Shown piece after piece: positions 745 through 12,882 of a stretch of 60,549 bases of DNA; the first letter of the stretch is position 1; each line of letters opens with the position of its first letter. Both the position numbers and the translations under genes were made by a program. The notes under the pieces were generated by a model. That model saw only the letters and a program-made list of their open reading frames with translations, was not told the origin of the DNA and searched no databases. This stretch comes from a virus. The stretch is taken from positions 1 through 60,549 of the IMG/VR virus record IMGVR_UViG_3300044638_004051; one strand, 5' to 3'.

Positions 745-2364
745 ATGGCAGAGCCACAGCCCAACTATCTATCTGGCGTCAATCAGGCCCGGCAAGCAGG
801 GCGTACTGCTCGACGGAAGCGCACGGAGGACATGCTGACTCCGCTAGACAGCGCAGCCGCCATGGACCGTCTACAGGGCGTGGACGTTGGCGACTTCAGC
901 GGCGTTATGGACACTCCATCGGTGAACATCATCCCGGCCCTCATCGGCAATCGGCGGGGTGGTGGCGGGGGCGGATACTCATCTCCGCAGGAGGATGACT
1001 CCGACGAGCCGCAGGACGGCTATATCACCCAAGTCGGATGCCCGAACGGCCAGTGCGGCGTTCGCTCCTATGCTCCGATGGCCGCTCCAACAACGGTGTA
1101 CTCGACGCCTAGCTCGTCCACCGTCTACTCGACGCCCATGTCTTCGCCTATGGCGACCACCGTGTCCTCTCCAGTGGTCACGTCTACCACCACTTCTGCG
1201 AAGCCAGCCAAGCCCATGACGCTCAAGGAGCGCGGCGAGGCAATGGTCAACGATGGCTTGGCCCAGTCTGGCTCCATCCCATATGACGCTCCAGACAGCC
1301 AGCCTGCAAGAGCCGCACTTGCCACGCAGGACGCGCGCCTCAAGGTTCTGGCTGGCGAACGCATGCTCGCCCGTGATGCCCGCGAAAAGGCTGATGAGAT
1401 CAACAAGGTTAACACCGGGCGAATGCTTGATCAGCAGGACATCCAAGTCGCTGCTGATGCTGCCGAGAAGTATTCGCAAGCCAAGGTCAATGATGCGACT
1501 GCGGCCATGGCGCAGGACGGCAACTCTCTCGACTACCACCAGCGAATGAACACGCTGCTGCGCCGCACTATCGAGGGAGGCGAGTCGCCAGCCGACTACG
1601 CTGCCGCCCGCTTGGTCGCTGACACCAACACCATGGCGAAGCCGAATCTTGGGCGAGGCGAACCCGGCGCACCACCCACGATCCTTCAGCCGAATGTTGC
1701 ACTAAAGCCGCTGGATGAGCGGTATCGTGAGTACCTTCGCATCGGCACCGCAGGACATGCCATTCACATGTTCTTGCAGTCATCGCAGTTTCACGAACGC
1801 ATGACTGCCCGCCCCAGCGACGAGGTCCGCATGGCTCGCACCGCTGGCATGGTTGGGAAAGACAACGAAGGCAAGCCGGTCGAGTTCAATACTGATCAGT
1901 TGTATGACCCTGATTTCAGCAAGACGCACAACGAAGCACTTCGACGCTCGACCACTGCCATTGCCAATGGCTACGGCCAAAGCGGATTGCTTGGCAGAAG
2001 CTGGTACGAAGTCAGCACCGCACTCAACAGCGACGTGCTGGCTCCGTTGCAGAGGTTTGTGACCGAGCGGTACATCACCTCAGAGGCTGGGCGAATCAGC
2101 CAGCTGCCGGAAGAAGCGCAGGCCGATGCGATTGCCGCCGTGCGAGACCGAGCATCCAACGACTCTCTTGCTTACTTCCGGTTTATTGAGGCGGACATTG
2201 CAATAGCCAATGCCAAAGCTGGTGGCGGCGATCCTATCAACCCAGACCGGGTGAAGGGGTCATGGTTCCCTTCGTCCAAGCCCGATGTTGCACCTTCGCC
2301 CGGTGCGCAAGCAACCCCCCCAGCCGCCTCTGAACTGCCACGGTTCCATCGCGGAGACATGTAA
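745..2364 (+). CDS. Putative virion protein with CPNGQC motif and Ser/Thr/Pro linker
   Basis: This 539-aa protein was not recognised as a known family. The N-terminus is basic (RQAGRTARRKR), followed by a short Gly run, a CPNGQC motif, and a Ser/Thr/Pro linker with repeated VYSTP units. The C-terminal two thirds look largely alpha-helical and charged, and the tail is Pro-rich. The ATG at 745 has AGAGGA eight bases upstream. Its stop overlaps the next start (TAATG), so the pair is translationally coupled within the virion operon. A role in the capsid or as an internal virion protein is inferred from position only. Confidence 0.6.
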   Translation: MAEPQPNYLSGVNQARQAGRTARRKRTEDMLTPLDSAAAMDRLQGVDVGDFSGVMDTPSVNIIPALIGNRRGGGGGGYSSPQEDDSDEPQDGYITQVGCPNGQCGVRSYAPMAAPTTVYSTPSSSTVYSTPMSSPMATTVSSPVVTSTTTSAKPAKPMTLKERGEAMVNDGLAQSGSIPYDAPDSQPARAALATQDARLKVLAGERMLARDAREKADEINKVNTGRMLDQQDIQVAADAAEKYSQAKVNDATAAMAQDGNSLDYHQRMNTLLRRTIEGGESPADYAAARLVADTNTMAKPNLGRGEPGAPPTILQPNVALKPLDERYREYLRIGTAGHAIHMFLQSSQFHERMTARPSDEVRMARTAGMVGKDNEGKPVEFNTDQLYDPDFSKTHNEALRRSTTAIANGYGQSGLLGRSWYEVSTALNSDVLAPLQRFVTERYITSEAGRISQLPEEAQADAIAAVRDRASNDSLAYFRFIEADIAIANAKAGGGDPINPDRVKGSWFPSSKPDVAPSPGAQATPPAASELPRFHRGDM

Positions 2365-2699
2365 TGAGCGCGCTCATCCCAGCAATCATCAGTCTTATCT
2401 TGAGCCGACGCGGCGGAGGTGGTGGCGGAGGTGGTGGTGGTGGATACCGTGGCGGCGGCGGTCGCGGTGGCTACCGAGGTGGCTACCGTGGTGGCTACCG
2501 TGGTGGCGGTCGCCAACCCAAGTCCATTGAAGAAGTGAGCAACGATCACTGGCGGAAGCAGATTTACAAGGGTGCGCTAGAGAACGATTTCGAGAAGGAG
2601 CTTTCGTCCATCGACAAAGGCGAGAACGATGCGGAGCCTACTAGCTATGTCAAAGGCATCGCAGAACTGAAGGCCGACCTGCTAGGTAGGGGGCGTTAA
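2364..2699 (+). CDS. Small Gly/RGG-repeat protein
   Basis: This 111-aa protein has three parts. The first is a hydrophobic helix (SALIPAIISLIL). The second, residues about 17-50, is a run of eleven Gly followed by reiterated RGGY units. The third is a charged helical C-terminal half (SIEEVSNDHWRKQIYKGAL). RGG/RGGY tracts elsewhere bind nucleic acid or self-associate; here that is inference. The start overlaps the upstream stop (TAATG), and the next gene begins the same way. A hydrophobic anchor plus Gly-rich tether recurs in that neighbour, so the two may be paralogous in architecture. Function unknown. Confidence 0.65.
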   Translation: MSALIPAIISLILSRRGGGGGGGGGGGYRGGGGRGGYRGGYRGGYRGGGRQPKSIEEVSNDHWRKQIYKGALENDFEKELSSIDKGENDAEPTSYVKGIAELKADLLGRGR

Positions 2700-3331
2700 T
2701 GCTTGGACTTCTTGGCGGACTCCTTGGCGGCGGGTTAATGGGCGGCATGATGCGCCGTGGTGGCGGCGGCGGCGGGGGCGGAAGCTCGATGCCGACCTAT
2801 GCTGCGCGTGCGCCACAGTCCGCCCCTGACGCCCCCGAGCCACAGGAGCCATCTGGGCAGACGAAGGCCCAAGATCCGCAGCAGCAGGCTCCGCAGCAGC
2901 CGCCAGAGCAGGCTATGTCGCAGACCGCCGCGACAGAGGTTGCCAAAGGCCAGCCTGTACAGCAGCAGCAGCAGAAAAGCCCAGTGGCTGGACTGCTGGA
3001 TGATGCGCCCACATCGAAGCCGCCGCCCGAGCCGGGCGATGACCGACCACCGGAAGCTCCGATGGTCGCCAACCGAACGGAAACCCCTAATCCTGTCGCT
3101 CGACAGCAAGACGAGCAGATGGGGCAGGTTCCGCGACTTGAGACGCCGAGCCTTCTTGGCAACCAGCTACTGGACTCTGGCACCAACCGTCAACGGTTTG
3201 AGTATCAGGAAGGGATGCCAGCCAAGCAGCTTGACACATCCGGCTCCGACTGGACTCCGCCGATGGGGCTTTCGTATCAGCAGCCGACTACCGTTGCCGG
3301 TAGCGTTCCCGCTCGCAAATACAGGATGTAG
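2699..3331 (+). CDS. Gly-rich, Gln/Pro-rich protein
   Basis: This 210-aa protein starts with a Gly/Leu/Met hydrophobic stretch (LGLLGGLLGGGLMGGMM), then RR and eight Gly. A long low-complexity region rich in Pro, Gln and Glu follows, ending at KYRM. No enzyme motif is visible. It is coupled to the preceding RGG protein by a TAATG overlap and lies two bases before the 1244-aa virion protein. It probably belongs to the particle or its assembly, and the Gly-rich N-terminus could insert in or cross a membrane during ejection (inference). Confidence 0.6.
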   Translation: MLGLLGGLLGGGLMGGMMRRGGGGGGGGSSMPTYAARAPQSAPDAPEPQEPSGQTKAQDPQQQAPQQPPEQAMSQTAATEVAKGQPVQQQQQKSPVAGLLDDAPTSKPPPEPGDDRPPEAPMVANRTETPNPVARQQDEQMGQVPRLETPSLLGNQLLDSGTNRQRFEYQEGMPAKQLDTSGSDWTPPMGLSYQQPTTVAGSVPARKYRM

Positions 3332-3333
3332 CA

Positions 3334-6300
3334 ATGGACCCGCTATCCATTCTCGCATCCTCACCTGCGCGTGCGCAGCTAATGCGTGCCACTGGCATGC
3401 TTGGCCCATCTGGCTATCGGCCTGATCGCGACAGCATGGATGACATGCCTGTTGCTGAACAGGACACCATGCTGGCTGCGATGCAGCGGCAGGCGGGCGG
3501 CGCGCTTGGGGCGATCACGACCGCTCTTGATACGCCCGGTGCCATCGGCCGAGGCTTGCTCACTGGCGATCCCACCAGCGGCTTCTCGTTTGACGAGGAC
3601 CGCCGCGTAAGTGGTGCGGAGATGCTGGAGAAGGCTGGCGTTCTCGGCAAGGATGCCAACCCATACTACCGCGCGTTTGCGGGGCTGGCTGCGGAAGTCG
3701 CGACCGATCCGTTGGCCATCGTGACAGGGCCACTCAGCACCCTGTCCAAAGCGGGCAAGGCCGCAAAAGCCGCAGGCATTCTCAACAACGCATCCGATGC
3801 CGCCCTTGCTGCGATGGGCATCGACAAAGCGCGTGGCGCACTTGCTACCGGACGAAACGCCTACCAGTTCCTTGGTGACCTTCTTCCAGCGGGTAAGGCA
3901 ATAACGAAAGAGAATGCCGCCTATCGCCCGCTGGTTGGGCCGCGAGTTGCTCGATCAAACGTCACGCTTGAGCAAACGATCCAAGCGTCCACCGATCCAG
4001 TCAAAGCACTGGAAGACGTGCAGCGTTATCTGAAAAAGCAGGGCGTTGATTACGACTCAGTCAAGGGGCAGAAACTTGGTGGTGCCTTTGGCATCAACTA
4101 CTTCAATCTGCACGACCCGATAGTCTTCAATCCACAGAACCCGCTGGTACAGAAGTCGCTCGACCTGCTCGATGCGGGCGGGCAGATGGCACGGTGGTCG
4201 CCTCTGTCCCGTACTGCCAGTGCGTGGTTCGATCAACGTGTAGGCGGGCGCAGCGGATCGTACGATCAGCTGATGAACCTCCGACACTGGGATGACTTGC
4301 AGGCGGAGAAGGCTGCGGCCCGAACGGTTGCATCGCAACACACCCGACTTGTCACCGGCACCGTGTTGTCAGATGAGGCACAGCGGCTGCTTGGTGCTGA
4401 CACGCTGAACTCTCCACAGGGCGGCGACTTCCTGACACGCATGTATGAGAACGTCCCGACTCAGGGCGACATGCGGCTGCGATCTGCCATCGGGGCCGAG
4501 ACCACTGACAAGATTGTCGATAGCTTCAACAAGTTCCGCGATGACATTCGTTCCCAAGCCAAGGACTTGGGCATGGTCAGCCGCAGGATGAAAGACCCGT
4601 ACGGCGTGGAGTGGCTCCCTCGACGCGGGCAGGAAGGAAAGTTTGGCGACTACGGGAGTGGGCTGTCCCAGAACGCCTACTACACCCGCTCACTAGAGAA
4701 CGAGATTCGCAACAAGAATCTTATGACTCCGGGGGGCACGGTTGACCTGCGGCAGATCACGCTGCTTCCGAAGGTTCAGCAGTTCGTCCGCGAGGGTGAG
4801 AAGAGCGGTCTGTCCGTTGCTGAAGTGGGTGCCGAGATAAAGCGGTTCCTCGATTACAAGCACGGTGCCGACACCCCAGAAGCCCGAGCGTACCTCGCCA
4901 AGATCGGCGTGCAATACGATCCTCGCGTCACACCGTTCAAGACGTTCGTGCCGCAACTCGACGCGCAGGGCAAGGCTATCACAGAGGCCGTGCTGGACGA
5001 GGCAGGCAACCCGAAGATGCGCATGGTCCGCACGAAGCGCGGCACGGTGCGGATCGACAAGGCGACCGGCAAGCCTCTCATGCAGCCGAAGACCCGCACT
5101 GTCTTTGACGAGAAGCAGGTCATCTCCCAAGGGCAGGCAGAAGGCATCGCTCGCGTCTACATGCGCAAAGACCCGAGTCTGCCCGCCGACATGCCATTCT
5201 TTAGCGAGCATCCGCTGGCCCCTATCGCTCGCGCTGCAACCGCTCAGGCAACAGCCCGTGCTAACGCTCGCACCGTATACCAGAGCCTTGCCGAAGCAGC
5301 AGAGTTTGCAGGCGACGGTGCCTTTGCCAACTCTCTCCCCGGCACCAATCGTAAGCCGCTCGACCGTGCGTTGACAGAGATCGCACAGAAGACCGGATTG
5401 CAGACGCTGTCTTCCGGCAACCCATCGAACTCCGTTGTCAACATCCTCAAGCGGCAGATCGCCGCGATCAACAACCAGTCTCCCGATGCGGTGAACCTCG
5501 CCCAGTGGTCTGTGCCAGAAGTTGTGGTCAACCGCCTGACTGCGGTTCACGACTTCTACTCCAAGCCACGCGCCCAAGAGGAAGTCGCGGGCATCTTCAA
5601 CGCTATCGGCCAAATATACAAAGGCTTCCTGCTTGCTTTCCCAAGTCGCTTCACACGCGATATCTATAGCAACGGCTACCAACTGTGGACGCTAGGTCGC
5701 AACCCGCAGGATGTGGTGTACGGCATTCGCACCGCACAGAAGATCGTGTCCGGTGATACGAAGGCCGCTGCCGAGCTTCTTCGTCAGCTGCCCGGCAACA
5801 CCAAGCTGCCGGACCAAGCGGTGCTGTCGCGGATGCAGGATGACGTGGCTCGCACCGGCATCCTTCAGACACTCGCATCGAGCGATCTGCTGACTTCCAA
5901 TCGCACGGCTGACCTCAACAGCCTTGTGCCCGGTATGAATCCGCAGCGGGCGGGCGACTTCATCAAGGAGCTTGTGCCGGACGGCTCACGCAATCCGCTT
6001 CAGATGGCGCAGGACTACTTCACCTTCAAGGGTGTACAGATTCCGTACGCCCAGAAGCTGCCTGCTGCCGAGACACGCAACGCCGTACTCAACGCCTCGC
6101 AGAAACTCAACGACTACACCGACAGCGTCTCTCGCCTTGGTGGCATGATCATGCTCATGCGGCAGGGCGTGTCTGCTGACGAGGCGGCACGACGTGTCAC
6201 AGAAGCTCTCGTTGATTACTCAAGCTTAACGCCCGTGGAAAGGTCCGTTTTTAAAGCGATTTTTCCGTGGTGGAGTTACGCGAGTAGGTCAGGTGCATAC

Positions 6301-7068
6301 GCCGTCAAGGAACTGCTGACCAATCCCGGCGGCGCGTATGCCCAGACGGTGCGTGGGTTCAACCGACTGCAAGAGTCCGACGAGAACACCTACGTGCCCG
6401 AGGCTCTGCGGCAGCAATTCGCCATTCGCATTCCAGACGAATACAAGCAGTATCTGGGGCTGGGTAAGACCGGCAACACAACCTTCCTACGCGACATCGA
6501 TATCCCCGGCTTCGACACTCTGTCACTGTTCTCGCCCGGCCCCGGCATCTATCCGACCGTCAAAAGCACATTCGCCAATCTGGCGCAGCAGACCAACCCG
6601 CTCCTCCAAAACCTGACCGAGCTTGCGTTTGACCGCGACCTGTTCTCGCGCCGCCCACTGCAACAATCAGACAACGCGCTCGACCGCATCTATCGAGAGT
6701 TGAGCGGATCGAAGACCAACATGAATCCGGTGCTGCGGCAGGCCATCGACCTGATCCCCGGCCCGCGTATCTCCAGCGTGATCAGTCCGCTTGTGGACTC
6801 TCGCGTTCCCGACATGCAACAGCGTGTCGCCAAGATGCTGATCAACAGCTTGACAGGCGTGAAGGTGCAGGACGTGGACCCGCGTTATCAATACTCAGAC
6901 GCACGCCGCTTGCTAGCCGAAGAGTTTGGCGACTTCGCCCGGGACTACACCGAGAGCTACATCCCGAAGGACGTGTTGCCGCAGGTTCCGGCAGAGCTAC
7001 TGCCGAGGTACGAACTATTCCGGTCGCTTGGCAAGAGGCTGCGTGACGAGAGGAAGGCACAGAAATGA
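3334..7068 (+). CDS. Large virion protein, candidate internal/ejection protein
   Basis: This is a 1244-aa protein. Around residues 960-1000 it has a DYSSLTPVERSVFKAIFPWW type segment that I associate with large phage internal or polyvalent proteins. Earlier, near residues 760-800, it has FPSRFTRDIYSNGY. The rest is mixed helical with no visible catalytic motif. Its size, its place after the tail genes and its coupling to small virion genes fit an inner-core or DNA-ejection protein of a podovirus. That role is inferred, not demonstrated. The stop overlaps the next gene by four bases. Confidence 0.6.
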   Translation: MDPLSILASSPARAQLMRATGMLGPSGYRPDRDSMDDMPVAEQDTMLAAMQRQAGGALGAITTALDTPGAIGRGLLTGDPTSGFSFDEDRRVSGAEMLEKAGVLGKDANPYYRAFAGLAAEVATDPLAIVTGPLSTLSKAGKAAKAAGILNNASDAALAAMGIDKARGALATGRNAYQFLGDLLPAGKAITKENAAYRPLVGPRVARSNVTLEQTIQASTDPVKALEDVQRYLKKQGVDYDSVKGQKLGGAFGINYFNLHDPIVFNPQNPLVQKSLDLLDAGGQMARWSPLSRTASAWFDQRVGGRSGSYDQLMNLRHWDDLQAEKAAARTVASQHTRLVTGTVLSDEAQRLLGADTLNSPQGGDFLTRMYENVPTQGDMRLRSAIGAETTDKIVDSFNKFRDDIRSQAKDLGMVSRRMKDPYGVEWLPRRGQEGKFGDYGSGLSQNAYYTRSLENEIRNKNLMTPGGTVDLRQITLLPKVQQFVREGEKSGLSVAEVGAEIKRFLDYKHGADTPEARAYLAKIGVQYDPRVTPFKTFVPQLDAQGKAITEAVLDEAGNPKMRMVRTKRGTVRIDKATGKPLMQPKTRTVFDEKQVISQGQAEGIARVYMRKDPSLPADMPFFSEHPLAPIARAATAQATARANARTVYQSLAEAAEFAGDGAFANSLPGTNRKPLDRALTEIAQKTGLQTLSSGNPSNSVVNILKRQIAAINNQSPDAVNLAQWSVPEVVVNRLTAVHDFYSKPRAQEEVAGIFNAIGQIYKGFLLAFPSRFTRDIYSNGYQLWTLGRNPQDVVYGIRTAQKIVSGDTKAAAELLRQLPGNTKLPDQAVLSRMQDDVARTGILQTLASSDLLTSNRTADLNSLVPGMNPQRAGDFIKELVPDGSRNPLQMAQDYFTFKGVQIPYAQKLPAAETRNAVLNASQKLNDYTDSVSRLGGMIMLMRQGVSADEAARRVTEALVDYSSLTPVERSVFKAIFPWWSYASRSGAYAVKELLTNPGGAYAQTVRGFNRLQESDENTYVPEALRQQFAIRIPDEYKQYLGLGKTGNTTFLRDIDIPGFDTLSLFSPGPGIYPTVKSTFANLAQQTNPLLQNLTELAFDRDLFSRRPLQQSDNALDRIYRELSGSKTNMNPVLRQAIDLIPGPRISSVISPLVDSRVPDMQQRVAKMLINSLTGVKVQDVDPRYQYSDARRLLAEEFGDFARDYTESYIPKDVLPQVPAELLPRYELFRSLGKRLRDERKAQK

Positions 7069-7466
7069 GCGCGATCATCCGACTCGCAAAGACGCTGTAC
7101 GGCCCGCAGAAGTACGGCGAACTGTCCGAAGAAGCTGGCCGCGTGAAGGCGGAGTACGTTGGTGCTGGCGGCAGGCCGGAGGACGTGTACTCGCCAGAGA
7201 GGATCAGCGCACTGGCTAATGGCGGTCCACTGGCCCTGCTGCGTGAAGAGGGCAAGCTGCGTTCCGATGGCACCGTCGCCGCTCCCTATGTTCCGACCGG
7301 GCTGGCACTCGCCACAAACATGATTGAACCCGCTGCCGTGCCTGCCGTTGTTAATGCAATGCGTAACGGAATAAACACGGTGAGCAGTGGACGTGATCCG
7401 GAAACGGGCCAAGGGTTTGCTATTGGGCGTGCGCCAGATGGAAGCGTGAAGAAGGTGATGGGATGA
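7065..7466 (+). CDS. Hypothetical protein in virion operon
   Basis: This 133-aa protein was not recognised. The N-terminus is charged and helical (IIRLAKTLYGPQKYGELSEEAGRVKAEY). The C-terminal half contains a small-residue stretch (ALATNMIEPAAVPAVVNAM) and a GRDPETGQGFAIGRAPDGS turn-rich segment. ATGA overlap with the large protein upstream and a further ATGA overlap with the gene downstream place it firmly in the virion operon. Confidence 0.6.
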   Translation: MSAIIRLAKTLYGPQKYGELSEEAGRVKAEYVGAGGRPEDVYSPERISALANGGPLALLREEGKLRSDGTVAAPYVPTGLALATNMIEPAAVPAVVNAMRNGINTVSSGRDPETGQGFAIGRAPDGSVKKVMG

Positions 7467-7729
7467 GCGACGTGATCCGCAAGCTGAAGAAGGGGGCGTG
7501 GACACGCACAGAAGGGAAAGACCCGGATGGCGGTCTGAACCAGAAGGGCAGAGATAGCTACAACCGCGAACACGGTGCGGACTTGAAGGCACCGCAGCCA
7601 GAGGGCGGGCCGAGGCGGGATTCTTTCTGTTCGCGGATGCAAGGCATGAAAGAAAAGCTGACTAGCGAGAAGACAGCGAACGATCCTGATTCGCGAATCA
7701 ACAAATCACTCCGCGCGTGGAAGTGCTAA
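7463..7729 (+). CDS. DUF6321-like small phage protein
   Basis: This 88-aa protein matches a phage family I recall as DUF6321. It has the order KKGAWTRTEGK, DGGLNQKGRDSYNRE, then RRDSFCSRMQGMKEKL and a C-terminal LRAWKC. The conserved Gly-Gly-Leu-Asn, Tyr-Asn-Arg and Phe-Cys-x-Arg-Met positions are all present. Members occur beside structural genes in many tailed phages. Function is unknown to me. It overlaps both neighbours by one to four bases. Confidence 0.75.
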   Translation: MSDVIRKLKKGAWTRTEGKDPDGGLNQKGRDSYNREHGADLKAPQPEGGPRRDSFCSRMQGMKEKLTSEKTANDPDSRINKSLRAWKC

Positions 7730-7992
7730 TGAGCGACGTGATACGTGCAGTGCGTGGCGGCTGGACTCCTCCTCCGCGTACCAATTCATTCGACGTGCGG
7801 GCCGACCTGCCGCGTGATACCTACTCGTTCTTGCAGAACCAGATCGAGAGCCAGCAGCGGCAGGCGCAGAACAACGTCAACCGCACGATCCGTTCCGGCA
7901 ATCTCAACGCTGCGCCGCGTGCCGAGACTGCCTCACCAATCCGCATGCCAGTCATGCTGCCGACCACCATCATTACCCTCCCTGTTCCGTAG
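7729..7992 (+). CDS. Hypothetical small protein
   Basis: This 87-aa protein opens SDVIRAVRGG, close to the SDVIRKLKKG opening of the preceding gene; this may reflect local duplication of the 5' end. The middle is Gln/Asn-rich (NQIESQQRQAQNNVNRTI) and the end hydrophobic (MLPTTIITLPVP). The start is the ATG in a TAATG overlap with the upstream stop. No family recognised. Confidence 0.5.
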   Translation: MSDVIRAVRGGWTPPPRTNSFDVRADLPRDTYSFLQNQIESQQRQAQNNVNRTIRSGNLNAAPRAETASPIRMPVMLPTTIITLPVP

Positions 7993-8000
7993 GAGTGCCA

Positions 8001-8264
8001 ATGTCCAGCGGCTACAACCAACCGTTCGACGCCACGACCATCAGCCGCATGAACCAGCCGCGACCGAAGGGGCCGGATGACGTTGTCGTTCACAACCCAT
8101 TCCAGATGCAGCTTGACGCCAATCCGGAGTTCGCCCGCCCGGCCAGCGGTGGCGGCAACATTCGCGACCTGATCAACAGGCTGCGGCAGCGACCGACGCA
8201 AATGGCACCGCCCCCCCAGCAGCAGGCTCCAGCCGAGCCGAAGTCCGTGCTGCGAAGGGAGTGA
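8001..8264 (+). CDS. Hypothetical small protein, last gene of virion operon
   Basis: This 87-aa protein has a helical segment (IRDLINRLRQRP) and a Pro/Gln-rich tail (APPPQQQAPAEP). AGGAG at 7991-7995 places the start at ATG 8001 rather than the in-frame GTG at 7995. It ends 11 bases before the stop of the convergent integrase gene, so the late transcript would run into int antisense unless it terminates. No obvious terminator hairpin lies between them. Confidence 0.55.
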   Translation: MSSGYNQPFDATTISRMNQPRPKGPDDVVVHNPFQMQLDANPEFARPASGGGNIRDLINRLRQRPTQMAPPPQQQAPAEPKSVLRRE

Positions 8265-8275
8265 TGCTCTATCTA

Positions 8276-9136
8276 TTACCGGATCGGCGGCGGGCCAGCC
8301 GGAACGTCGAACAGCGAGGCGTCTAGGTAGTGCCTGCCAGCCAGCATTGGATGACTGTGCTGAAGATAGCGAGTAGCTGCGCCGGGCTGATCTCGCTCGA
8401 CATAAGTCGCGCAGGATCGACGCAGCCATTTGCACGAACCGCCGAAGCCGTGCCTGTCAAGGAACGCCCGCCACGTCTTGATCGCCCTGCGCCGTGTCAG
8501 TGCCCACTGGAACAAGGTGCCATCGGGTGATCGCGATAGCAGTGCATTCACTGTTTCGTCTGTTGTGTCAGACATCTTCCTCACAAGTGCCTTGCCAGTC
8601 TTTCCCGCCGTGGTGCTGATGCAGCCATTTCGCACATTCTGGGCAGTCAGGCCAAGCACGTCACTGAATCGCAGACCTGTATCAAAAGCGATACCGATCC
8701 ATGCTGGCAGCACGTCGCACCTCCGCAAGGTGGACACTCCGCCAAGCAGAGTCTCGTCGCGTTCTGCCGCCTCTAGCATGCGGACCAGATCGAGCATCGA
8801 CCATGCCTGTGGCGGAGCCTGCTTGGCACGCACCTTCCTGATACGCACTGGAAGGGTTTCGGTCAGCCCTTCTTCAAATGCGTATCGCCACAACGTCAGC
8901 AGTTCTCTGCGGATATTGGATGCTGTTGTGGGTCCGACTGTTAGCGTTCCGATAAATCGGTTGACGCTTTCCGGTTGGAGTTGACAGATTTTTTCAAGCC
9001 CATTAGCTTTGGACTTCCGTACAGTTCGTCGCAAGGATTCGACGTATCGAGGACTGCATTCCCGTGAAGCAACATAGGCTTCAAGCAGTTCGTCAAGGTG
9101 CATCTCAACGGTGTGTATCAAGGAGGATTGAATCAT
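8276..9136 (-). CDS. int: Tyrosine-family site-specific integrase
   Basis: This 286-aa recombinase would integrate the phage at the tRNA-type attP 160 bases behind it. The N-terminal half is an all-helical core-binding (SAM-like) domain. The catalytic domain shows Arg156 (TGLRFSDVLGL), Lys179 (TTAGKTGK), Lys-Trp-Leu-Arg-Arg at 236-240, the QHSHP box at about 259-263 and nucleophile Tyr270 (GRHYLD). The usual His of the H-x-x-R box is replaced by Lys236. The start at 9136 follows a clear AGGGGAG; an upstream in-frame ATG at 9214 lacks one. It is transcribed away from attP and the recombination operon. Confidence 0.93.
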   Translation of the reverse strand: MIQSSLIHTVEMHLDELLEAYVASRECSPRYVESLRRTVRKSKANGLEKICQLQPESVNRFIGTLTVGPTTASNIRRELLTLWRYAFEEGLTETLPVRIRKVRAKQAPPQAWSMLDLVRMLEAAERDETLLGGVSTLRRCDVLPAWIGIAFDTGLRFSDVLGLTAQNVRNGCISTTAGKTGKALVRKMSDTTDETVNALLSRSPDGTLFQWALTRRRAIKTWRAFLDRHGFGGSCKWLRRSCATYVERDQPGAATRYLQHSHPMLAGRHYLDASLFDVPAGPPPIR

Positions 9137-9201
9137 CGGTGGCTCCCCTTTCTGCGGGCCACCTTGCCCCCAATTCGTAGCCCATATCCCTATGGACTCA
9201 A

Positions 9202-9220
9202 TAGCTCTAAACAAGAGCTA
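9202..9220. promoter_or_regulatory. Perfect 7-5-7 inverted repeat between int and the nuclease gene
   Basis: TAGCTCT and AGAGCTA are separated by AAACA. It lies in the divergent intergenic region, 66 bases before the integrase start and 45 before the nuclease start. It is a plausible operator or arm-type recombinase/excisionase site. No T-run follows on either strand, so it is not a terminator. Confidence 0.5.
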
Positions 9221-9253
9221 ACTGCTTGCCCCCCCATGTAGAGGAAGGAGTTA

Positions 9254-9265
9254 ATGGTTTCCTAA
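9254..9265 (+). other. Three-codon mini-cistron ahead of the nuclease gene
   Basis: ATG GTT TCC TAA follows GGAAGGAG (9243-9250) at good spacing. Its stop overlaps the nuclease ATG at 9265 as TAATG. The strong ribosome site therefore serves this M-V-S peptide, and the nuclease would be reached by re-initiation. Seen directly; its use in vivo is inference. Confidence 0.4.
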
Positions 9266-10164
9266 TGGTCAGGATAGAAAATCCTGACTGGACGCAGCAC
9301 CGGCTTCATAAGCCGGGTGTCGCCGGTTCAAGTCCGGCCGCTGCTATTCCAGTCACTGTTTCCTACGAGCCAGCGAAGGACTACCACCGCTGGCCCGAAA
9401 CATCATGCAGTCAGCTGAAGACCCTACGCGAGTCTTCACTTGAATTCTACTGGCGATACGAGGTAGGGGAAGCCCCGCCCAAAAGTAGTGCCAGCCTCGA
9501 CTACGGCACTTTGCTCCATACGTGGGCAGAGTTGGGCGACGAGGAATTCTGGCAGCGCGTCTCTGTTGCAGCGGACACTCTGGTAACCGCGACAGGGGCA
9601 TTCTCAAAGAAGGCGGACGAGTGGATCGCGTCACTCGATCCACGCCTGATCCCCATCTCCCCGGCTGATCGCGACAAGCTGCGTGCGCAAACTCGCGAAC
9701 TGCTCCGCAATCCCGAAGTGGCGGAGATCATCGAGCGGACAGTGGACCGCGAGTTCAATGTCCGCTGGCCGTGGAATGGCCACCCTGTCCGCGCTCGCTG
9801 CGACGGACGCACTGACGAGTTTCTCTTCGACTGGAAGACCACTCGCGATAAGTCGCCACAGAACACATGGTGGCGCAGTGCGATTGAATTCGGCTACCAC
9901 CTGCAATCCGCCATGTATGCGGAAGCAGGTGTGGCAATGGGCATGCCACTGCATCGCATGCGTTTCATTGTCACCAGCACTGTGTGGCCCCACGAATGCT
10001 TCGTGTGTGTGATGCCACAGAAGCTCATCGACATCGGTAAGGCGCATTGCGAGCGTCTGCTGGATGAACTGCAAACCCGCCGTGAGTGGGATTGCTGGCA
10101 CCGTCTGGACTCACAGGAGGTCTGTGAGTTGCGCGTCCCTGATTACGCCATGAAAGGAGCATGA
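9265..10164 (+). CDS. PD-(D/E)XK exonuclease, RecB/RecE-like, partner of ERF
   Basis: This 299-aa nuclease has His85 in a YGTLLHTW segment, Asp180 in RCDGR, Asp189-Trp-Lys191 (LFDWKTT) and Gln214 (GYHLQSAMY), the H-D-D-x-K-Q order of RecB-type nucleases. It would resect double-stranded DNA ends for the annealing protein that follows with an ATGA overlap. The start is odd. Residues 11-28 are encoded by the tRNA-derived attP core, and no in-frame ATG follows the core, so the ATG at 9265 is the best choice. Integration would separate this start from the body of the gene. Confidence 0.85.
   Translation: MVRIENPDWTQHRLHKPGVAGSSPAAAIPVTVSYEPAKDYHRWPETSCSQLKTLRESSLEFYWRYEVGEAPPKSSASLDYGTLLHTWAELGDEEFWQRVSVAADTLVTATGAFSKKADEWIASLDPRLIPISPADRDKLRAQTRELLRNPEVAEIIERTVDREFNVRWPWNGHPVRARCDGRTDEFLFDWKTTRDKSPQNTWWRSAIEFGYHLQSAMYAEAGVAMGMPLHRMRFIVTSTVWPHECFVCVMPQKLIDIGKAHCERLLDELQTRREWDCWHRLDSQEVCELRVPDYAMKGA
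9269..9287. promoter_or_regulatory. Second perfect 7-5-7 inverted repeat flanking attP
   Basis: TCAGGAT and ATCCTGA are separated by AGAAA, ending nine bases left of the tRNA-like core. It has the same 7-5-7 geometry as the repeat at 9202-9220 but a different sequence. It may be a core-type integrase site or an RNA hairpin in the first codons of the nuclease gene. Confidence 0.45.
9296..9346 (+). other. attP: attP core: 3' part of a tRNA-Met(CAU) gene
   Basis: The sequence folds as a tRNA 3' half. Anticodon arm 9300-9316 is CCGGC-TTCATAA-GCCGG with a CAT anticodon. The variable loop is GTGTC. The T arm at 9322-9338 is GCCGG-TTCAAGT-CCGGC. Positions 9339-9345 give the 3' acceptor strand CGCTGCT plus discriminator A. 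No matching 5' acceptor strand or D arm is present upstream, so it is not a functional tRNA. A tRNA 3' fragment beside int is the classic form of a phage attachment site. Integration would restore the host tRNA and displace the nuclease start. Confidence 0.82.
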
Positions 10165-10958
10165 TCATGCCGCAGATTGGTTCGTTCGTAACCCTCCTCT
10201 ATCGCGAGGAATCCCGCACCACTGGCGAGCTTATTGCCGCTGTGTGCAAGGCCCAGCTGGAGTTTGCCCCGATCACCCTCGATTGCGAGGGGCGTCGTGG
10301 TGGCGAGGCGTACAGGTATGCCTCGATCCAGTCGATTCGCCGTGGCATCCAGCATGCCATGTCTCGTCACGGCTTGCTGATCCATCACGTCTACGGCTTC
10401 TCCGATCAGGGGGAGCATGTGGTCACCGTGTTGCGTCACAGCAGTGGCGAGTACATCGCGTCCACCAGTCGTATCGCATTCCGCGAAGACGCGCAGGAGC
10501 AGAAGGCACTGAAGACGTTGCTGTGCCGCACGGCCATCGAAGGGCTGCTGGGCATCGTGACTGAAGAGGACGATGACGCGCAGTCAACCACGATTGAAGT
10601 GGACTCTGCCAACGTCAAGCAGCAGGCCAGCAATCTCGCCATGGCCAAGGCCGCGATCCTCTCCGCAGGCTCGCCTGCTGCATTGGAACGCTATGCCGAG
10701 TTGGCGAAGACCCGGCTGGCGGAGGGTGCGTTGTCGGTTGACGGCGCAGCGGAGATCGAGCGTTTGATCGAGGAACGGAAGAAGCACCAAAAGAAGGAGG
10801 TGGCCAGTGCTGACGGTAAAGGAACTGCTGGAGATCAAGGCACGGATGCTGCTCGCAGCGGAAGCGTGTCATCGGATAGTCGAGTCGCAGGGCGAGCCGC
10901 TGGAGTTGGACGCGGAGACGCACCTGCTGGTGTCAAGCGCGATGCACAGCCTGCGTGA
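10161..10958 (+). CDS. erf: ERF-family single-strand annealing protein
   Basis: This 265-aa protein fits the ERF family of recombination mediators, which anneal complementary single strands. The core shows AYRYASIQSIRRGIQHAMSR, then VTVLRHSSGEY and EQKALKTLLCRTAIEGLLGI, in the usual order. The 5' nuclease neighbour completes a two-component recombination system. The last roughly 60 residues are low-complexity Ala/Gly/Ser/Asp. They are encoded in DNA that also encodes the start of the next gene (152-nt out-of-frame overlap). Confidence 0.85.
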   Translation: MIMPQIGSFVTLLYREESRTTGELIAAVCKAQLEFAPITLDCEGRRGGEAYRYASIQSIRRGIQHAMSRHGLLIHHVYGFSDQGEHVVTVLRHSSGEYIASTSRIAFREDAQEQKALKTLLCRTAIEGLLGIVTEEDDDAQSTTIEVDSANVKQQASNLAMAKAAILSAGSPAALERYAELAKTRLAEGALSVDGAAEIERLIEERKKHQKKEVASADGKGTAGDQGTDAARSGSVSSDSRVAGRAAGVGRGDAPAGVKRDAQPA

Positions 10959-11283
10959 GGACGCGCGGACTGTGCTTGCAGAAGTGGACATCCTGCGTGG
11001 GATGGCCACGGACTCGTTTGACCACATCTTCAAGGAGGAGACAGAGCATGGACGTTCTGGCTATGTGGCAAAGCCTCGACCACAAGAGGCTGTCGCTGGT
11101 GGCGATGGAGAACCAGCTGTCGCAGCAGCAGTTAGTGGCCCTGTTCGACCAAGCGGGGCTGACGGGGAGACAACCCGCCGACCCCGGGCCAAGCGAAATC
11201 GCCGCCGCAACAGCGGTGATTCGCAGCGAGTGGACTCCGCAGGTCGAGCAGAGCCGGTGGATAGCGGCACGGAAAACGCTTAG
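10807..11283 (+). CDS. Hypothetical protein overlapping erf
   Basis: This 158-aa protein uses a GTG start preceded by AAGGAGG. The N-terminal about 80 residues are a regular amphipathic helical domain (LTVKELLEIKARMLLAAEACHR). The C-terminal half is disordered and Arg/Gly/Pro-rich. The first 152 nt overlap the erf tail and the last 236 nt overlap the next gene, each in another frame. The N-terminal part is the convincing region; the tail may be tolerated read-out of the next gene's DNA. Confidence 0.6.
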   Translation: MLTVKELLEIKARMLLAAEACHRIVESQGEPLELDAETHLLVSSAMHSLREDARTVLAEVDILRGMATDSFDHIFKEETEHGRSGYVAKPRPQEAVAGGDGEPAVAAAVSGPVRPSGADGETTRRPRAKRNRRRNSGDSQRVDSAGRAEPVDSGTENA

Positions 11284-11293
11284 TCACTTCTAG
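11048..11293 (+). CDS. Small helical hypothetical protein
   Basis: This 81-aa protein starts at an ATG with GGAGG 11 bases upstream. It is helical (MWQSLDHKRLSLVAMENQLS, then QQLVALFDQAG) and ends SRWIAARKTLSHF. It lies wholly within the overlap with the previous gene except for ten bases, and sits 14 bases before the helicase gene. No family recognised. Confidence 0.55.
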   Translation: MDVLAMWQSLDHKRLSLVAMENQLSQQQLVALFDQAGLTGRQPADPGPSEIAAATAVIRSEWTPQVEQSRWIAARKTLSHF

Positions 11294-11307
11294 GGAGGGA
11301 TCGCAGG

Positions 11308-12882
11308 ATGCAAGGCTCACTTTTCACGGACGAATTCACGGAGGTTCGGACGGTTGTTCCCAAGCCATACCGTCCGCGTCCGTACCAGATCGAGGCTGCG
11401 GAACGTGCAGAGACTGCTCTTCAAACGGCAGACATGTGCGGCCTGTACCTCGCCACTGGCACGGGCAAAACGGAGATCGGAGCCTTGCTTGTGCAGCCTG
11501 TCAAGGATGACGGTGTGCTGTATATCGCCCCTCGCAGGGAGCTAGTTGTTCAGACGGCTGACCGACTAACCCTGCGAGGGGTGGACTGCGATATCGAGAT
11601 GGGAACGCGGCGCAGCTACAAGCCAGTCACTGTGGCTTGCTACCAAAGCCTTCAGAGCAACCGGAGGTTTGAGCGTTTCCTTGGAACGAAGAGGCGAGTG
11701 ATCGTTGACGAGAGCCATCTCAACTACAGCGAGGCAGCACTGAAGATGCTGGCTCAGTTTCGTTCGTGGGGTTCGCAGGTGATTGGCATGACTGCCTCCC
11801 CTCCCCACAAGAAGAACGTGGTGCTGGCCGATCACTTCGGTGAAGCCGCATATGTGTATGACTACCAGCAGGCGGCTGCTGATGCGTACCTCACCAACTG
11901 CAAGATGCACCTGTGCGTGCTGGAAGACCTCGACCTGACAGGCTTTCGTGCGACGTTTGGTGGCACGGACCCGGACTTCAATCCCACCCGCGTTGCCCGC
12001 CTGATGGAGAAGAAGGCTGTCGTTGCTGGGATATGCAACATGGTAGCGGAGTTCTGGGAGAACCAGCCCAGTGTGGTCTTCTGTGCCAGCATCGATCAGG
12101 CAGAGCTAGTGCGTGATGACCTGTGGAGCCGTGGCATCCAAGGCTCCATCGTCCACAGCAAGATGGACGATGACGAGCAGCGGCTGCACCTCAATGACTT
12201 CATGTCCGGCAAGTCGAACCTCGTTATCAACGTGGGCATCTTGACATTGGGGTGGGATGCCCCGCATGTCAGGAAACTTTTTATCGCGAGGCCGACCGCT
12301 TCCACCCAACTGTATACGCAGATTTTCGGGCGCGGCACCCGCTGCTTCCCGCCCGGTGTGATCGACGGCATCGACACTGTGGAGGGGCGGCTTGCTGCGA
12401 TAGCAGCCTCGCCAAAGCCCTTCTTTGAAGTGTTCGACATCACCGATGCGTCGAGGCACAACGATCTGAAGACGGCTCTCGACGTGATCCGGCCAAGCCT
12501 CGATGACCGCCTGATGAAGCGGATCAGGAACCGCACGCAGCGCGGCCCCATCGCACCCAAGGAACTCGATCCGATCATCATTGAGGAGAAGCGGGCACTC
12601 GCTGCCGAGCAGGCCGCTATCGACGCACTGGAGATGCGGAAGCGTGGCAATGTCCACGTCAGCGGTCAGGTGGTCGCCTACGAACGGGACACGTTCGCTG
12701 ATGCCGAGACCAACCACCGCAAGAAGGTTGTTGATTTTTGGTGGATGCCATACGGCCGCTTCAAGGGGAGGGGCTTCAAGGCCATCCACGCTGAAGCACC
12801 GTGGTATCTGCCGTCGGTGCTGCCCCATGTGAAGAACGAGGGGCTGGCTCGCAACATCCGCAAGTTTCTTTCGGCTCGTTAA
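11308..12882 (+). CDS. DEAD/DEAH-box superfamily 2 helicase
   Basis: This 524-aa ATP-dependent helicase has a Q-like motif (RPRPYQ, residues 23-28), Walker A ATGTGKT (49-55), motif II DESH (135-138), motif III TASP (163-166) and motif VI QIFGRGTR near residue 340. It resembles the phage SSL2/UvsW-like group that remodels branched DNA or starts strand exchange. It closes the recombination operon. AGGGAGG lies 13 bases before the ATG. No primase or polymerase accompanies it, so a repair or recombination role is more likely than a replicative one. Confidence 0.9.
   Translation: MQGSLFTDEFTEVRTVVPKPYRPRPYQIEAAERAETALQTADMCGLYLATGTGKTEIGALLVQPVKDDGVLYIAPRRELVVQTADRLTLRGVDCDIEMGTRRSYKPVTVACYQSLQSNRRFERFLGTKRRVIVDESHLNYSEAALKMLAQFRSWGSQVIGMTASPPHKKNVVLADHFGEAAYVYDYQQAAADAYLTNCKMHLCVLEDLDLTGFRATFGGTDPDFNPTRVARLMEKKAVVAGICNMVAEFWENQPSVVFCASIDQAELVRDDLWSRGIQGSIVHSKMDDDEQRLHLNDFMSGKSNLVINVGILTLGWDAPHVRKLFIARPTASTQLYTQIFGRGTRCFPPGVIDGIDTVEGRLAAIAASPKPFFEVFDITDASRHNDLKTALDVIRPSLDDRLMKRIRNRTQRGPIAPKELDPIIIEEKRALAAEQAAIDALEMRKRGNVHVSGQVVAYERDTFADAETNHRKKVVDFWWMPYGRFKGRGFKAIHAEAPWYLPSVLPHVKNEGLARNIRKFLSAR

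Follow-up and report, generated by a model that had tools for sequence, protein, structure and literature searches.

An attachment site copied from a tRNA gene lies within a RecE-like exonuclease gene of planctomycete phages, and integration probably parts the gene from its start

What becomes of a phage gene whose 5' coding part contains the very site at which the phage integrates? The question is raised by a viral record 60,549 bases in length (the whole stretch of DNA that was analysed, hereafter the window), in which a partial tRNA gene is read as protein at the beginning of a recombination nuclease, next to a divergent integrase. The features of this locus, from left to right, are the following.

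8276-9137, minus strand: tyrosine integrase gene, divergent from exo (PHROG_1, E 1.7e-16)
9243-9250, plus strand: GGAAGGAG, candidate ribosome-binding site for exo, left of the core (from sequence)
9254-9265, plus strand: mini-ORF ATG GTT TCC TAA (from sequence)
9265-10164, plus strand: exo, RecE-like (exonuclease VIII) PD-(D/E)XK nuclease (profile matches, predicted structure)
9267-9289, plus strand: 9-bp hairpin immediately 3' of the exo ATG (fold z -2.3)
9285-9292 and 9348-9355, no strand assigned: inverted repeat TGACTGGA / TCCAGTCA flanking the core, candidate integrase site
9296-9346, plus strand: attP core, equal to the 3' part of host tRNA-Met(CAT) and translated in the exo frame as LHKPGVAGSSPAAA (exact host matches)
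10161-10958, plus strand: Erf-like single-strand annealing protein (ERF, 1.2e-8; PHROG_2324, 1.7e-19)

The exo product matches PHROG_412 over residues 32-297 (E 4.7e-41) and scores above cutoff for both DUF3799 and PDDEXK_1 of Pfam, the nuclease homology setting in between residues 32 and 47 in the Pfam and PHROG comparisons. Its structural model (mean pLDDT 78) has E. coli RecE as the top Foldseek match in the PDB (3h4r, E 2.1e-11, TMt 0.76). Profile and modelled fold alike assign the protein to the RecE / exonuclease VIII family, with a predicted nuclease activity. Residues 1-27, which comprise the leader and the core-encoded part, are disordered in the model (pLDDT <50), and the folded domain begins right after the attP core. 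Downstream follow the Erf-like annealing protein and then a helicase; the erf start overlaps the exo stop as ATGA, and a second erf ATG at 10167 is preceded at about 8 nt by an AAAGGAG of its own. The window integrase falls slightly below the cutoff of Pfam Phage_integrase and has no match in the phage collection, and relatives of it occupy the same place in every core-bearing locus with enough sequence on that side.

The start region of exo is compact. The ATG best spaced from GGAAGGAG is that of the mini-ORF at 9254 and not the exo ATG at 9265; because the mini-ORF stop overlaps the latter as TAATG, exo is probably initiated by re-initiation or across a longer spacing. Scans of window positions 9050-9420 for sigma-70 promoters and terminators gave no match. 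In 14-17 of 21 loci checked, the candidate integrase start sits on the same CATG as the exo ATG, on the opposite strand, so that the ribosome site of either gene falls within the coding sequence of the other (L062, L064, L066, L068, L138, L142, L148, L154, L133, L134 and L136; further L137, L139 and L143; possibly also L073, L125 and L127). Other tRNA-Met lineages have a hairpin similar to that of the window, though of different sequence, in the first ~35 nt after the exo ATG, and in the lineages with a shared CATG one of its arms, on the minus strand, resembles an integrase ribosome site by eye (e.g. GGAGAG). From this resemblance the post-ATG hairpin may control integrase translation.

The sequence-only reading of this DNA had placed the core at 9296-9346 within the 5' coding part of the nuclease gene, as residues 11-28, and so it lies: the 51 nt match a host tRNA-Met exactly and in frame, and they contain its anticodon arm, variable loop, T arm and acceptor strand. 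An exact scan with 42 nt of the core found 21 contigs, mostly from Planctomycetes assemblies. Twenty are host-genome contigs identical to the window over at least 51 bases (9296-9346), ARAGORN calls a tRNA-Met(CAT) in 20 of the 21, and the remaining contig, L005, is itself a prophage junction. An exact tRNA-Met match of 51 nt is not due to chance. In the window ARAGORN finds no complete tRNA because only part of one is there, and Rfam yields only a sub-threshold tRNA and chance miRNA matches. The segment thus joins the two properties looked for in an attP, identity to part of a host tRNA gene and an adjoining integrase.

How widespread is this arrangement? Single-sequence searches of viral contigs with exo and integrase returned a near-identical contig only, and relatives were gathered by means of the core pattern and alignment-based searches. 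A gene-blind scan of the viral collection with a 31-nt piece of the core hit ten viral contigs, each within an exo gene and in the identical reading frame, with a divergent integrase just left of the core wherever the contig reaches far enough. Altogether 25 distinct core-bearing viral exo genes were obtained, whose products are down to about 30% identical; their cores derive from the 3' part of tRNA-Met (14), tRNA-His (7) or tRNA-Gly (2) and from the 5' half of tRNA-Gly (2). The tRNA-His core occurs exactly in 22 genomes of the order searched, and a tRNA-His was called in all six of those checked; the tRNA-Gly cores were recognised by the sequence itself, Rfam giving no match there. In L125 and L127 the core upstream of exo is the 5' half of tRNA-Gly(CCC) rather than a 3' part, and after integration phage DNA would therefore lie on the promoter side of the restored tRNA. 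The viruses with an attP inside exo are a family infecting freshwater Planctomycetes. The tRNA parts read as LHKPGVAGSSPAAA or VAGSSPVSH in nuclease N-termini are an in-frame signature that aids the finding of attP sites and of hosts of uncultured phages. Two further observations concern the family. A AACCCCCC motif recurs between exo start and core in the leaders of L128, L133, L147, L129, L068 and others. Integrases of the same family lie beside partial tRNA-Arg-like or tRNA-Val-like sequences in L226, L227 and L228, where exo was not found nearby; judging by sequence, these are possibly attR remnants at further tRNA targets.

In all 25 genes an ATG upstream of the core opens a reading frame that continues across it into the rest of exo. 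The spacers between core and domain measure 29-73 nt and keep a constant phase within each tRNA type (L071, missed by the spacer pattern, was examined separately). In every one of the 25 genes the leader from ATG to core lacks stops in the exo frame; the other two frames are open in 9 and 2 leaders, and shuffled sequences would give 8.5. The tRNA-Gly part of L074 is 1 nt longer than that of L071, and 1 nt fewer directly after the core restores the frame (CGCTTTTTC in L071 vs CGCTTTTC in L074). Constant phase, open leaders and the offset 1-nt change together indicate that translation of exo crosses the core when the phage DNA is free. Constraint on the coding content of the leader itself appears weak, its pN/pS being mostly 0.4-1.0 and only weakly below 1.

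If the core is read through, the nuclease depends on a start to the left of it, and alternatives to the right are scarce. That no in-frame ATG follows the core in the window, as had been claimed, is borne out: the first ATG, GTG or TTG is TTG 9511 (codon 83), and before it the exo frame has only TTG 9226 and ATG 9265. In none of the 25 core-bearing exos does the spacer from core to domain contain an in-frame ATG. The tRNA-His core and some tRNA-Gly cores include an in-frame GTG, and in L073, L133 and L154 a TTG or GTG occurs in the spacer; none of these codons has an obvious ribosome site, and weak starts at them are possible.

Both products of integration were found in host assemblies, in different genomes and in relatives of the window's phage. 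In L097 (from G027) a complete tRNA-Met (7007-7082, minus strand) is fused in frame to the body of exo; the exo frame is closed upstream by a TAG in the D-arm of the tRNA, and past the core it offers no ATG, GTG or TTG before codon 162 of 302. L097 is the attL form, and it bears out the expectation that the nuclease body would come to lie directly behind an intact host tRNA. The complementary attR form is L005, from another assembly, where integrase, a short leader and the core are followed by host DNA matching the sequence 3' of tRNA-Met in other hosts; the predicted move of ribosome site and ATG to the other end of the prophage is thereby seen in a relative. The search for lysogens that the sequence-only reading had proposed was thus answered by attL and attR in relatives, and none was found of the window's own phage. 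An order-wide genome search for exo returned one tRNA-fused lysogen, the other matches having ordinary starts, and a second core copy was not found in the genome of L097. L005 has two related tandem integrases at its attR end (1600-2472 and 2746-3666). In L221 (G039:C19, about 1818-11575) the tRNA-His core is duplicated, and its copies, ~9.7 kb apart, flank an unrelated integrated element; a profile search finds in it neither an integrase of this family nor exo.

The junctions of L097 and L005 show that integration removes the exo start, and the physical claim that integration separates exo from its start is strongly supported at the level of sequence: the identity of the core, its frame, both junctions in relatives and the lack of usable starts can be read directly from the DNA. 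The mechanism that we propose on this footing runs as follows. The attachment site would derive from the 3' part of the host tRNA-Met and be kept coding within the disordered tail of exo. On free phage DNA translation would begin left of the core and continue across it into the nuclease. A crossover in the core would send leader, ribosome site and ATG to attR together with the integrase, so that the candidate ribosome site GGAAGGAG is removed from exo, and would leave at attL a restored host tRNA fused to a nuclease body devoid of a start. As this body has no start, synthesis of the nuclease would be limited to the non-integrated genome: exo would be available before integration, after infection, and again after excision, and absent from the lysogen. 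That exo is beheaded by integration and made only from the non-integrated genome is our favoured reading, and we hold it with good though not full confidence. From it we infer that lysogens do not translate exo, and that a nuclease processing DNA ends would thereby be kept inactive in lysogens and become available again upon excision. Whether erf is silenced together with exo, through lost coupling or transcriptional polarity, is uncertain, because erf has a ribosome site of its own.

Why the genes should be laid out in this way is a separate matter, and here the evidence points less clearly in one direction. Selection for an off-switch as the cause of the layout would seem to have about even odds. 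Head-to-head integrase and exo, often starting on one CATG, could form a compact two-gene switch, in which integration leaves the integrase together with its leader and structurally disables the nuclease, excision re-creates its gene and lysogens that make the nuclease are disfavoured; the DNA from start to core would then serve at once as integrase 5' region, attachment-site arm and exo N-terminus. We would give this account an equal chance of being right or wrong. It would explain why the layout outlasted changes of the target tRNA, namely because nuclease-making lysogens were disfavoured. A more prosaic account, somewhat doubtful but with a real claim, is that the layout is a by-product of packing: integrase and exo stand head-to-head without spare DNA, attP has to adjoin the integrase, it therefore falls inside exo, and loss of the start is tolerated rather than selected. 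The CATG that the two candidate starts share puts leader, integrase 5' region and attP on the same DNA and leaves attP no other place; the site falls within a disordered tail, and conservation of the frame requires no more than a need for exo in the free phage form. Yet an ATG with a ribosome site downstream of the core would free exo from this dependence, and 0 of 25 genes have an in-frame ATG there; the layout also survived target-tRNA changes on the exo tree, and relatives without a detected integrase mostly start near the domain.

The start-distance statistics behind this last point are rough: two duplicates were wrongly counted among the loci without an integrase, and the exos of mycobacteriophages are extended at the N-terminus. 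Within core-bearing lineages of the exo tree, L061, L069 and L076 have an ordinary ATG nearby, and no integrase was detected in the stretch examined and no tRNA core recognised. In L072 (3201-3953), and at the same place in L075, an endonuclease-VII-like gene (PHROG_1035, 7.3e-9) lies between the tRNA-Gly core and exo and now carries leader and core; the exo ATG overlaps its stop as ATGA, so that exo can still depend on a start left of the core. A piece of the old core, CTCGCCCGCTTTTC, persists at the exo start beside the inserted gene in both. An exception is L129, where an integrase adjoins, the exo ATG is nearby and no tRNA core was recognised. An attachment site was likewise not recognised in L060, L135, L141, L147 and L155, which have an integrase.

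Two other explanations would undo the favoured reading itself rather than its cause. That lysogens go on translating exo, from a weak, non-canonical or internal start after the core, is unlikely, even though the folded domain lies wholly after the core, GTG occurs inside tRNA-His and some tRNA-Gly cores, and the window has ATT 9346 and CTG 9415 in frame, the only such codons between core and TTG 9511. Against it stand L097, with nothing of the ATG/GTG/TTG kind until halfway through its exo, and the leaders, kept open in frame in every lineage. In addition, tRNA transcripts are processed at the 3' end of the tRNA, and a transcript entering exo through the tRNA would be cut there. The reading of the tRNA-like segment as an RNA mimic that regulates from within the exo mRNA, and not as an attachment site, has next to nothing in its favour beyond its stable fold (most of 9285-9352 pairs, z -4.2): the segment is exactly identical to local host tRNAs, an integrase adjoins it, one version of the core is a tRNA-Gly 5' half, and the actual junctions in L097 and L005 contradict the idea.

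If the favoured reading is true, a working exo gene exists in the free genome only, and a temperate phage gates a recombination gene by the topology of its DNA instead of by a repressor. Integration-dependent gene control would then extend from repressors to recombination functions. We found no description of an attP inside an exonuclease gene in the open-access literature, which is limited evidence of novelty. The nuclease shares its domain with the RecE / exonuclease VIII family (PHROG_412; closest solved fold 3h4r), but unlike that family in general its core-bearing members have a leader and a tRNA-encoded tail before the domain. T7-like cyanophages, aquatic as well, have an integrase and a tRNA-derived attP; according to PMC8776855 this attP, which matches tRNA-Leu, lies downstream of the integrase gene, whereas here it lies inside a recombination gene. 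The transfer genes of Tn916 need circularization, with transcription across the joined ends, according to PMC6540685, citing Celli and Trieu-Cuot (1998). The likeness is that genes required only after excision acquire their upstream signals only through the joining of the att ends; unlike in Tn916, the join here falls inside a coding sequence and would supply the start codon, present only in the attP form. Another close parallel is integration-dependent immunity in mycobacteriophages BPs and relatives, which have attP inside the repressor gene and, as PMC4557955, citing Broussard et al. (2013), relates, lose 33 C-terminal residues of the repressor on integration, the truncated form being made in the lysogen. 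In both systems attP lies within a phage ORF whose product is altered by integration, here as read from the sequence of L097. However, the gene that holds attP in our phages encodes a RecE-like nuclease and not a repressor, and since the start is lost where the mycobacteriophage repressor has its C-terminus shortened, the nuclease should vanish. The present case thus differs from the known ones in the gene concerned, the end affected and the action on the start codon.
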